This document shows, piece by piece, positions 1-52,958 of a stretch of DNA of 52,958 bases; the stretch's first letter is position 1; each line of letters begins with the position of its first letter. The notes under the pieces are model-generated. The model did not search any database. It was not told the origin of the DNA and worked only from the letters and a program-made list of their open reading frames with translations. The DNA lies in assembly GCF_002251775.1 (NCBI RefSeq), contig NZ_NOXX01000194.1, positions 1 to 52,958 on the forward strand. The letters run 5' to 3'. The position numbers and the translations under genes are program-made. Source of the DNA: Flavobacterium aurantiibacter (GTDB lineage Bacteria; Bacteroidota; Bacteroidia; Flavobacteriales; Flavobacteriaceae).

Positions 1-72
1 AATCTTTTAATCTTTTAATCTTTTAATCTTTTAATCTTTTAATCTCGAAATCTTTAAATCTCAAAATCTCCG
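1..72. repeat. 8-bp tandem repeat, AATCTnnn, nine units
   Basis: Five perfect units of AATCTTTT (1-40) are followed by four degenerate units that keep AATCT at exact 8-bp spacing (41-48, 49-56, 57-64, 65-72). The array begins at the window edge, so it probably extends to the left. It lies in a non-coding stretch and is not near a start codon that I can see. It could be a slippage-prone microsatellite; no function is evident. Confidence 0.85.
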
Positions 73-85
73 ACCCCACTCTTCC

Positions 86-227
86 GCGTTAAGGATGGCA
101 GCGGAAATCGTGTTTTGCGCTTCCGCTAAAGGCGCAAAATACCCCGGTAGCTTTCGGGGCAGCGAACAGCCTGACGGCGCGTGAACTTTTGTTTTTGACG
201 CACTATTTTTGCGCCGGAACGCCCAAA
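86..227 (+). repeat. Dispersed structured intergenic repeat, copy A
   Basis: This fills most of the 298-bp gene-free stretch at the start of the window. The left end GCGTTAAGGA (86-95) and the right end CCGGAACGCCCAAA (214-227) both recur exactly in the copy at 42620-42745, as does the internal GCCTGACGG (169-177). It can fold into several stems: 113-120 with 132-139 (TTTTGCGC/GCGCAAAA), 142-146 with 155-159 (CCCCG/CGGGG), and 176-180 with 211-215 (GGCGC/GCGCC). The loops and stem sequences differ from the other copies while the flanks are kept. It may be a member of the flavobacterial intergenic repeats or of a non-coding RNA class such as the flavo-1 motif; I cannot check this. Confidence 0.75.
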
Positions 228-14390: not shown

Positions 14391-14552
14391 TGCCTGCATT
14401 AATTCATTATTGGTAAACTCAACACTAACAATTTAGAATGAGCAAATCGGTATTACTACAGCATGCTGCCTTTGTCGCAGATCCTGGAACAATACGCTAG
14501 CTCAAAACTTGTCTTTACGAGTTTATTCACAGATTAATGCAGGCTTTTTTTT
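14391..14552 (+). ncRNA. ssrS: Probable 6S RNA between zapA and rny
   Basis: This RNA-like segment is closed by a perfect 12-bp long-range stem, GCCTGCATTAAT (14392-14403) with ATTAATGCAGGC (14533-14544), followed at once by eight T (14545-14552). Inside it are TAAACTC (14414-14420) with GAGTTTA (14519-14525), TGAGC (14439-14443) with GCTCA (14500-14504), GTATT (14450-14454) with AATAC (14491-14495), and an apical hairpin CTGC (14466-14469) with GCAG (14477-14480). The result is one long rod with internal loops, about 155 nt, the overall form of 6S RNA, which binds RNA polymerase by mimicking open promoter DNA. Position after zapA agrees. The 5' end is approximate and the identification is by shape and place only. 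Confidence 0.72.
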
Positions 14553-16190: not shown

Positions 16191-16236
16191 ACTTGTATTT
16201 AAGGAGAAAACGATTTTCGAACACGGATTTCGCAGC

Positions 16237-16357
16237 AGCGATAGGAGCGGCATCCTGCTGCGAGCGGCGTTTGCCGAGCAGCAGATACAGCGGATAGCGC
16301 GGTGCCGGCTGGAACTCAAACGCTGATGAAAACGAATTTTGCCGGCAGCTGCCCAAA
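16237..16357 (+). repeat. Dispersed structured intergenic repeat, copy B
   Basis: This lies in the 497-bp gene-free stretch between rny and the small gene at 16626. The core GATACAGCGGAT (16284-16295) is also in the copy at 42620-42745, and GCTGCCCAAATAAAA (16348-16362) recurs exactly at the window's right edge. Stems: TGCTGC (16256-16261) with GCAGCA (16278-16283), and GCCGGC (16304-16309) with GCCGGC (16341-16346). The architecture is the same as copy A: AGCGG(A/C)ATC, stem, conserved box, second stem, CCCAAA. Confidence 0.7.
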
Positions 16358-16426
16358 TAAAAACGCTACCTACAATTGTAAAATTTCCTGCTTTGAAGTA
16401 GAATTCTATAAAGATTTGCTCCTTTT

Positions 16427-16590
16427 TTTGGGCGGCATTTCGCGCTTTTCACTACAAGTACACAGCAAAATTCGCACATCCCTACGGCATTTTTGCGCTT
16501 CCGTTGGTCGCACAAAACTTCCAAGGGCTCTTGCTCATTTGCTTTGCGTGCTTTCCGTTTCAATCGCGGCCGCGGGCAATCGTTTCCAAT
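16427..16590 (-). repeat. Dispersed structured intergenic repeat, copy E (degenerate, inverted)
   Basis: On the minus strand this ends in GCCCAAA (complement of 16427-16433) and begins near GGAAACGATTG, followed by a GC-rich palindrome (CGCGGCCGCG, 16565-16574) and AACGGAAAGC, which recalls the box order of the other copies. It faces copy B with the right ends about 70 bp apart. Similarity is weak and rests on the ends and the order of parts. The rest of the stretch up to 16625 holds nothing else I can support; open frames here are short and look accidental. Confidence 0.45.
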
Positions 16591-16625
16591 GAAAATGTGT
16601 TCGCCGAAATAACTACTTTTGAACC

Positions 16626-42533: not shown

Positions 42534-42619
42534 ATTCTAACTTTTTAATGCAAAGAAAAAGTAATTTTCGCAGGAGCGGATGTGATGGCAGAAAAATTTA
42601 CTTGTTTTACCATTTACAT

Positions 42620-42745
42620 TTTGGGCGTTCCGGTGGCAAAACGAACATCGCTTCGCAAAAAAGCGTTCCTGCCACCGTCAGGCCATCCGCTGTATCTTTT
42701 GCCTACGTACCTCCGGCAAAAGGATATCGCTACTGTCCTTAACGC
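42620..42745 (-). repeat. Dispersed structured intergenic repeat, copy C
   Basis: This fills most of the only long gap inside the glycan gene series. On the minus strand it starts GCGTTAAGGA (42736-42745) and ends CCGGAACGCCCAAA (42620-42633), both identical to copy A; GCCTGACGG (42675-42683) is also shared with A, and GATACAGCGGAT (42685-42696) with copy B. Stems: TTTTGCC with GGCAAAA (42697-42703, 42715-42721) and CGGTGGCA with TGCCACCG (42631-42638, 42670-42677). It could slow or end transcription between the two halves of the locus, but there is no T-run, so it is not a standard terminator. Confidence 0.78.
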
Positions 42746-42755
42746 AAAAAAATCG

Positions 42756-43460
42756 TTACCCAAAAAGCCGTCTCAAAATCGAACCTTTTTTCTTACGTAA
42801 CTTCCATTTGAACAAACGATACTTCATAGCTGCATTCCACTCAGACTGCAAAACATAAACGTTATCGGTATCTAAAGTAAATACTTTCAGATAATTAAGT
42901 TCTTTCAAAAACTCCAAAACCCGATTATCTTGGTAGTTGTTCTCAATCACTAAAACACGGATATGCTGTTTCTCAAAAGCAATTCCTTTTAGTACTTCAA
43001 GTTCGTTTCCTTCCGTATCAATGCTCATAAAATCGACAGTTTTATGACTGTCTACTAAACTAGAAAGTGGCTTTACTGCAATTTCTAGTTCGATGACCGA
43101 CCCGCCGCGTTTCTCTAATTCGCGCGCAATTCGTTGTTTGTGCTCTGCCGCATAAAAATCGGTGAAACCACTTAACATTTCTGCATAACCCGATATGGAG
43201 GTAAAACGCAAAACACCCTCGACAGCACCTAAACCGCAATTTTCGCAGCGAACTTGTCGTGCCGTCTTCAACTTGTCGAACACCTGCGGATTCGGTTCCA
43301 CGCAAATACCGTCCCAACTCCTGTAAAACTCAAAAAAAGCGCTATTGCTGTAGGTTAAACCGTCGTGAGCTCCTACATCAACGAAAAAACCGCCTTTCTG
43401 TTTGGCAAAAACAACCTCATCTAAAAACCGATCTTGCTCAAATTGAGAATGATAGGTCAT
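42756..43460 (-). CDS. FkbM family methyltransferase
   Basis: The 234-aa SAM-dependent enzyme shows motif I VDVGAHDG (27-34), the acidic motif II in CVEPNP and the FkbM-typical SIDTEGNELEVLKGI. FkbM enzymes O-methylate sugars or polyketides; here a glycan residue is the likely target. The start overlaps the broken GT10 gene by four bases (ATGA). The gap downstream holds repeat copy C. Confidence 0.9.
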   Translation of the reverse strand: MTYHSQFEQDRFLDEVVFAKQKGGFFVDVGAHDGLTYSNSAFFEFYRSWDGICVEPNPQVFDKLKTARQVRCENCGLGAVEGVLRFTSISGYAEMLSGFTDFYAAEHKQRIARELEKRGGSVIELEIAVKPLSSLVDSHKTVDFMSIDTEGNELEVLKGIAFEKQHIRVLVIENNYQDNRVLEFLKELNYLKVFTLDTDNVYVLQSEWNAAMKYRLFKWKLRKKKGSILRRLFG

Positions 43461-52913: not shown

Positions 52914-52958
52914 TTTTATTTGGGCAGCATTTCCGGCTTTCGGCTGTATCTTTTTATT
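52914..52958 (-). repeat. Dispersed structured intergenic repeat, copy D (cut by window end)
   Basis: On the minus strand the right end GCTGCCCAAATAAAA (52914-52928) is identical over 15 nt to the end of copy B, and GATACAGC (52943-52950) matches the conserved box of copies B and C. The rest lies beyond the window. Confidence 0.6.

Follow-up and report, generated by a model that had tools for sequence, protein, structure and literature searches.

The question raised by this locus is what kind of sequence lies between the genes of the window, that is, the whole stretch of 52,958 nucleotides of Flavobacterium aurantiibacter analysed here, in which an initial annotation had recognised at least four segments, and probably a fifth, sharing boxes and a common plan. 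These repeats are Flavo-1 (Rfam RF01705), a family of folded sequences that is known but has no explanation so far. Flavo-1 RNA was described by Weinberg (2010; PMC2864571), and a review names it as one of the small RNA families of highest abundance in bacteria (PMC9029176). Our literature searches on Flavo-1, RF01705 and bacterial repeats found no study of the function or the full structure of the family, which has carried a name since 2010 without a function and whose model turns out to be partial. The family is a known one, but it is seen here more completely, as larger elements and in more copies than the public model detects. Three points go beyond the initial annotation: the Rfam model is partial, there is a long form, and two related species keep positions in common.

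The Rfam Flavo-1 model has 76 nt and a gathering score of 42 bits, and covers one arm only. With it, the window's own genome gives 61 matches at E≤1, 39 of them above the gathering score. A full-length covariance model (R1; 160 positions, 30 pairs) was built on 39 own-genome copies including A, B and C of the window, which therefore match it by construction. Such a model was among the checks suggested by the initial annotation, and it finds many more copies in the own genome and in relatives. The annotation had staked its family on the existence of further copies, and R1 matches at least 131 places in the own genome at E≤0.01, with one duplicated contig stretch counted twice; this number is a lower bound because 150 of 1088 candidates were scored. 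As a negative control, R1 gave no match in three members of the genus that lack Rfam matches at E≤1e-5. All five segments of the window are matched by R1, including copy E, which had been called only probable (Table 1), and the guess that they might be Flavo-1 holds in that two of the five pass the Rfam gathering score.

Table 1. Flavo-1 copies and an adjacent tandem array in the window, with their matches to the full-length model (R1) and to the Rfam Flavo-1 model
Feature	Position	Strand	R1 match	Rfam Flavo-1 match	Remarks
Copy A	86..227	+	63-230, 88.0 bits; training member	none, even at E≤5	P1 5' strand GCGTT 86-90, 3' strand AACGC 218-222, then CCCAAA
Copy B	16232..16357	+	16210-16360, 87.5 bits; training member	16230-16308 (+), 42.5 bits (cut-off 42)	P1 GCAGC/GCTGC, Flavo-1 arm, P3 arm, CCCAAA
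Copy C	42620..42745	-	42617-42769, 118.2 bits; training member	42672-42750 (-), 46.7 bits	P1 GCGTT/AACGC, Flavo-1 arm, P3 arm, CCCAAA
Copy D	52916..52958	-	13.1 bits, E 0.021, 5'-truncated; outside training set	none at E≤5	right half of a short-type copy; contig end cuts off the rest
Copy E	16424..16596	-	44.9 bits, E 3e-12; outside training set	16434-16575 (-), 32.5 bits, under cut-off	Flavo-1 arm in a longer variant
Tandem array AATCTTTT x7.6	1..61	+			TRF score 94; P1 of copy A lies about 25 nt to the right

Between the P1 strands, copy A carries the Flavo-1 arm and then the P3 arm (GACGGCGC...GCGCCGG), and the 3' side of its P2 arm is extended or replaced (ACCCCGGTAGCTTTCGGGG). In copy C, a GGTAACGATT box adjoins P1 on the left and is a candidate part of the element. 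Direct reading of the window confirms the exact matches between copies that had been reported, namely GCGTTAAGGA and CCGGAACGCCCAAA (A and C), GATACAGCGGAT (B and C) and GCTGCCCAAATAAAA (B and D). The window taken alone and judged by one motif is a weak case, since CAGCGGAT occurs four times against 1.13 expected, with two of the four inside elements; it is the genome that makes the case. A gene for RNase Y (Pfam) lies upstream of copy B, and a 6S-Flavo RNA (14417-14524, 87.8 bits) is found upstream of this gene.

Each Flavo-1 element measures about 100-220 nt and folds as a three-way junction, which comprises a closing helix (P1), an arm with internal loops (P2) and a second arm (P3) that is missing in some types. 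P1 has 5 bp and closes the whole element. Its strands covary among the 39 copies, with the pairs GCGTT/AACGC, GGGTG/CACCC, GCAGT/ACTGC, GCGCG/CGCGC, GCAAT/ATTGC, GCGGT/ACCGC and GTGTT/AACAC. Inside it are found P2 (3, 2, 2 and 3-4 bp, followed by a free hairpin) and a GC-rich P3, and the right end is CCCAAA. The Rfam consensus arm (3, 2, 2 and 4 bp, with one 1x1 and two 3x3 loops) is present in the copies, so that the arm P2a-P2d with its internal loops is shared with the public family, as are the many copies per Flavobacterium genome. However, the 76-nt model is devoid of the 5-bp P1, of the P3 arm, and of the long form with its apical motif seen in copies of the window genome. Many copies have a P2 with two symmetric GNA/GNA loops.

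The initial annotation had also held that the stems differ in sequence and yet pair, which would point to selection on structure, and the stems indeed covary. In the alignment of the 39 copies (A1), 95.3% of 1157 cells are paired and 25 of the 30 pairs change on both sides, with a structure that was derived from the fold of one member and filtered on the same alignment, so that the figures lean towards that structure. Covariation reaches 0.622 against 0.180 in shuffled alignments and at most 0.108 in slid controls, and whichever of five measures is taken, 0 of 500 shuffles attain what is observed. The alignment started from the 61 Rfam places plus copy A, of which eight were skipped (duplicate contig, N, truncated or odd end) and three were without an end; of the remaining 51, 12 short or end-variant copies were left out. 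De novo folding with RNAalifold of 13 other, long copies (A2) recovers the same helices, with two-sided changes in 19 of 25 pairs.

Two types can be distinguished in the genus. Type I, the canonical one of Flavobacterium, has a short P1 and spans from YYYT-AGCCC to AGCTCCTAAAAA, with sharp ends (159 left and 119 right ends). Type II (GCGTT..AACGC plus P3) co-occurs with type I in G010 and G060, two complete genomes of related species. In addition, long copies of about 200-220 nt are present among the R1 matches, and Rfam misses them or scores them low. Near the tip of their P2 arm, these copies share the motif GCGACC-NNN-GGAAGC, of which GCGAC and AGC are invariant in the 13 aligned copies. 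The pattern GCGAC..GAAGC is found at 31 places in 2.24 Mb chosen for Flavo-1 and hence enriched for it; 11 of these have both Flavo-1 halves nearby, 12 have one and eight have none, and some of them lie in other named Flavobacterium (L133, L155, L171). Among other Rfam families, a search of ten long-copy loci gave a single weak match, to SorX, which is below the cut-off and lies outside the element. At one locus (L403 480-907; C208:12779-13206), two long copies stand inverted with their left ends abutting.

Flavobacterium and its relatives carry Flavo-1 as a family of non-coding repeats in their chromosomes. Rfam Flavo-1 matches at E≤1e-5 were found in 25 of 40 genomes, the own genome included, in agreement with the occurrence of the family in Bacteroidetes; by group, they occur in 22 of 25 members of the genus and in three of 15 genomes of other families. 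The number of places per genome ranges from 0 to 87, the high counts being lower bounds because 89 candidates were scored per genome. R1 gives 54 matches in G010, 72 in G060 and 97 in a further genome (G004); two genomes belonging to other families have a single R1 match each. A search with one pattern returned at least 120 stretches of named contigs, mostly of Flavobacterium among the matches listed, which also include some of Chryseobacterium, Epilithonimonas, Halpernia and Frigoriflavimonas. No viral contig appears among the matches listed for one exact pattern, and blastn of one canonical copy against plasmids and phages (one query each) gave no match.

The positions of the copies can be followed between G010 and G060, in which 53 of 55 and 80 of 80 copies, respectively, were compared. 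For 31 of the 53 copies of G010 a G060 copy is found at the orthologous place (26 by both flanks and five by one flank), always in the same orientation (31 of 31) and with matched flanks 71-93% identical. Three further matches were left uncounted, one of them short and single-flank and the other two inverted, single-flank and to a neighbouring copy. Parsing of 26 of the 31 ortholog pairs for seven base pairs each gives 123 unchanged and 59 changed base pairs; among the changed ones, 40 are altered on both sides and still paired, eight are altered on one side and still paired, and 11 are broken in one species. The left flank from -30 to -5, compared without gaps in 28 of the 31 pairs, is identical at 0.397 of positions versus 0.309 when permuted. 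Pairing is thus mostly kept while the left flank keeps little, and the structure outlives its surroundings. On a longer scale the picture is different: between the window genome and G010 or G060, only three of 60 positions are common with both flanks matching (49 of the 60 own copies have at least 300 nt of flank on both sides), the other matches being single-flank or inverted. The window genome is the more distant one, with 76% identity to G007 in the gene of a GCS2-family ligase (Pfam) against 84% for G010 and 83% for G060. With 31 of 53 common places in one comparison and three of 60 in the other, positions are long kept in the former and mostly replaced in the latter.

What is inherited at these positions differs along the element; at the sites common to the two diverged species the outer part of P2 is different, and the hairpin tip retains little sign of descent. 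In 30 of the 31 ortholog pairs (125 of 133 copies could be split into base and tip), the base is alike at 0.712 versus 0.658 when permuted (p 0.0002), whereas the tip, at 0.324 versus 0.250 (p 0.015), gives a less clear signal. The variable pair of P2a remembers descent (0.64 versus 0.35; 0 of 2000 permutations), the signal is not significant for P2b (p 0.06) and for the 3' inner part (p 0.11), and the class of internal loop 2 keeps none (0.50 versus 0.50; 8, 7, 7, 8). A tip more similar than that of the ortholog can be found within the same genome in 55 of 60 comparisons, although there are far more such copies to choose from; mean tip similarity within genomes, at 0.303 and 0.276, is near that across species, at 0.271. 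Similarity of tips goes along with a somewhat higher similarity of bases, so that exchange of whole copies and change of tips are both possible. Tips often hold other palindromes of the same genomes; palindromic repeats of the CTTCGACTGCGCTCAGGGTGACA, GTCAGTTCGAG and TGCTGAACTCGTTTCAGTAT types, for instance, are seen in Flavo-1 hairpin tips at L120, L164, L165, L205 and others.

The best reading, to which we give a probability of roughly 0.48, is that of an intergenic repeat that spreads slowly and is retained because of the fold that one of its strands adopts when single. The listed (sense) strand would be recognised as a single-stranded fold, either as ssDNA or as RNA, by a putative host factor. 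New copies would rarely enter intergenic sites and old copies would be kept, while the arm beyond P2a may be shortened, extended (also by other palindromes) or exchanged with other copies. The element would then behave as a structured repeat of the REP/ERIC type, and not as a promoter-bearing sRNA gene or as a UTR switch of its neighbour. The long retention of positions could also mean a local RNA function. A bolder version of this reading seems possible but doubtful: position and outer base of a fold-held repeat would be inherited, while the interior (loop 2 and tip) would be exchanged between copies of the same genome, e.g., when a break directed by the hairpin is repaired from another copy; the structure would in this way persist although the single copies are not genes of their own. 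The short forms that the Rfam model describes would be, in such a case, reduced versions of an element of about 200 nt whose form with the apical motif is the real functional or mobile unit.

The preference for one strand comes from mismatches and loops. In 208 of 219 copies, parsed with a register choice that treats both alike, G.T pairs outnumber A.C pairs by 42 to 24 (p 0.04). By gene context the ratio is 12:0 in copies antisense to both neighbours, 6:5 in sense copies, 11:9 in divergent and 4:4 in convergent ones. Other parses give 27:5 in the 26 ortholog pairs, with a register choice that favoured G.T, 6:1 genus-wide (74 of 86 copies) and 3:10 in the own genome (31 of 59 copies), the last value being probably a register effect. 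Moreover, the second loop is of the 3x3 kind in 143 of the 208 parsed copies, and nearly all of these show G-N-A on each side of the two loops (first G in 130-138 and third A in 138-140), which the opposite strand would read as T-N-C; the 5' side of these loops is partly set by the search pattern and the 3' side is free. Selection may then act on the listed strand, as RNA or ssDNA, an evidence that is only suggestive because the copies are related. It is important to note that the 86 genus-wide copies were picked by a pattern fixing much of the 5' strand and those of G010 and G060 by Rfam score, so that both sets lean towards the consensus.

A fold kept on one strand would also be expected of a multi-copy family of trans-acting sRNAs, as Rfam classifies it ('Gene; sRNA'), whose sense RNA binds a protein or pairs with mRNAs. 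The strong structure with purine internal loops, the 12:0 balance in copies lying antisense to both neighbours, the conservation of place and orientation in two species, and the apical motif of the long forms all agree with such RNAs. Yet we consider them unlikely, since the region from -60 to -15 of type I ends has no conserved promoter-like box; the sole preferences near the end are slight ones, for A at -14 and for C at -10. The TANNTTTG motif pointing into the element shows at most a weak excess, because its frequency in the first 50 nt to the left (0.083 per 50 nt) lies within the range of the other left bins (0.005-0.085), and that at 50-100 nt to the right is 0.101. Pointing away, it rises to 0.143 per 50 nt at 50-100 nt past the right end, as for promoters of the next gene. 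In the part of the F. psychrophilum transcriptome study concerned with the family (PMC9723704), Flavo-1 hits lie sense or antisense to transcribed regions alike, many of them outside, and no consistent transcription is reported. A partial model, the lack of an upstream promoter-like box and the kept positions make the question of function testable at single loci.

The copies had been described as lying between genes, and nearly all of them are intergenic; with ORFs called by a simple script, two of the 86 genus-wide copies and four of 59 in the own genome fall inside a predicted ORF. Orientation to these neighbours bears on another alternative, that of a gene-end element that would act, often in antisense, in the 3' region of the upstream gene, where it would protect or process the RNA 3' end or insulate transcription units from each other. 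Right neighbours that oppose the element (95 of 173) have their stop codon near its right end (median distance 38 nt; 48 of them at no more than 40 nt), and 32 right neighbours in the own genome are on the minus strand and 15 on the plus strand, with a median gap of 28 nt. In G010 plus the non-shared copies of G060, the neighbour pairs are (-,-) 45, (+,+) 20, (-,+) 20 and (+,-) 10, and the 45 copies antisense to both neighbours against 20 sense ones (p 0.003) indicate that orientation is not neutral everywhere. However, the split of 95 versus 78 is no significant excess (p 0.22), and the right neighbours of the genus-wide copies are + 38 and - 39. The antisense excess is likewise small both genus-wide, where the pairs are (-,-) 24, (+,+) 19, (-,+) 12 and (+,-) 7, and in the own genome, with (+,-) 14, (-,-) 10, (+,+) 7 and (-,+) 5. 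The 12:0 balance, in addition, favours the strand that is absent from the mRNA in question. There is no T-run after the hairpin on either strand, the ends being pyrimidine-rich on the left and A-rich on the right. Taken together, such a role appears improbable, a shade more so than that of an sRNA. An intrinsic terminator was rejected on the same sequences, as the listed strand has an A-run after the hairpin, and on the opposite strand the left end, rich in pyrimidines, is read as purines.

The slow spread in the preferred reading, a repeat held by its single-strand fold, rests on dispersal and turnover only, because no target duplication, linked transposase or clean empty site was found. Members of a subfamily in the own genome can agree by up to 94% along the element and yet differ in their flanks, and several of the alignments end at CACCCCCAAA while others continue into the flanks. 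Target-site duplications were not detected above permuted flanks in 119 and 47 copies, and old insertions could have lost one. No clean empty site was found, relatives being too diverged for the F. phragmitis copies. The terminal inverted repeats of a MITE are absent, the ends being YYYTAGCC and GCTCCTAAAA by the composition of 159 left and 119 right ends.

It is very improbable that Flavo-1 is a REP/REPIN-like element which a Y1 (RAYT) transposase mobilises in trans by way of a single-stranded hairpin. Flavo-1 would fit this model as a dispersed hairpin with mismatches in which one strand has the preferred fold, both Y1 genes in the own genome have a copy in their vicinity, at 1.3 and 2.6 kb, and a split of G010 by hand along a noisy GC skew puts 35 versus 20 copies on one side (p 0.06). 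However, the best free split of the strands along the chromosome gives p 0.79 and 0.30, and although G060 has 54 plus versus 26 minus copies overall (p 0.002), it has no significant split along the chromosome. No Y1_Tnp link to the copies was found: a Y1_Tnp match is missing from four of 21 copy-bearing genomes (those with 87, 40, 20 and 11 copies) and present in two of three copy-free genomes, weak and with an in-frame stop in one case. Both Y1 genes of the own genome (L060, L061) have a different palindrome, TTACGG..CCGTAA, upstream; the second locus also carries a long, degenerate GGTTGGGGTT-like array.

A cis-regulatory, riboswitch-like 5' leader of the downstream gene is scarcely tenable. 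Some copies do stand directly before the start codon in several species, at the GCS2-family ligase and, at three loci, at prephenate dehydrogenase (Pfam on one), but orientation to the neighbour varies, on which ground cis-regulation by fixed orientation was rejected, no pathway common to the downstream genes was apparent, and a one-orientation script test at the ligase locus flags 11 of 30 loci. This locus was matched in 49 of 199 genomes searched, of which the 30 show presence, absence or remnants; by eye, one more copy with an insert and two seeming remnants are seen, the others being without a copy.

Known systems resemble Flavo-1 in different respects. ERIC and BOX are long structured intergenic repeats; with Flavo-1 they share a size of about 100-200 nt, an intergenic location, an imperfect palindrome, free tips and nested insertions. 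However, Flavo-1 has another sequence and a three-way junction, and the TA duplication of ERIC has no counterpart found in it. The attC sites of integrons act as a folded single strand with a constrained base, a variable terminal structure and fixed recombination boxes; Flavo-1 has the first three features in common with them, whereas its closing helix varies by covariation. REP/REPIN with RAYT, used as a comparison system (PMC3733652, PMC8266576), are likewise dispersed hairpins with a preferred strand; Flavo-1 is much longer and has no link to Y1 genes.

Several minor observations can be added. Two contigs (L040/L041; C192 and C213) share 5.3 kb of identical sequence, by assembly or real duplication. 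At the end of L406 and at L410 (C184 and C151), two different Flavo-1 types follow a 195-nt flank that is 98% alike and includes a terminator-like hairpin, which reflects either recombination or an artefact of the assembly, N being present at a contig end. The ATTTTTTCNATTTTTTC microsatellite occurs at seven places in the genome, two of them away from listed copies and five at the left end of a copy on the copy's strand (two being one duplicated stretch). T-rich (ATTTTTTCN)n stretches are found at C94:167-183, C160:5443-5459, C181:143-222, C192:45234-45250, C213:145-161, C185:528-571 and C191:339-355, and both these, at five of the seven places, and the (AATCTTTT)n array that opens the window lie at or near Flavo-1 left ends.
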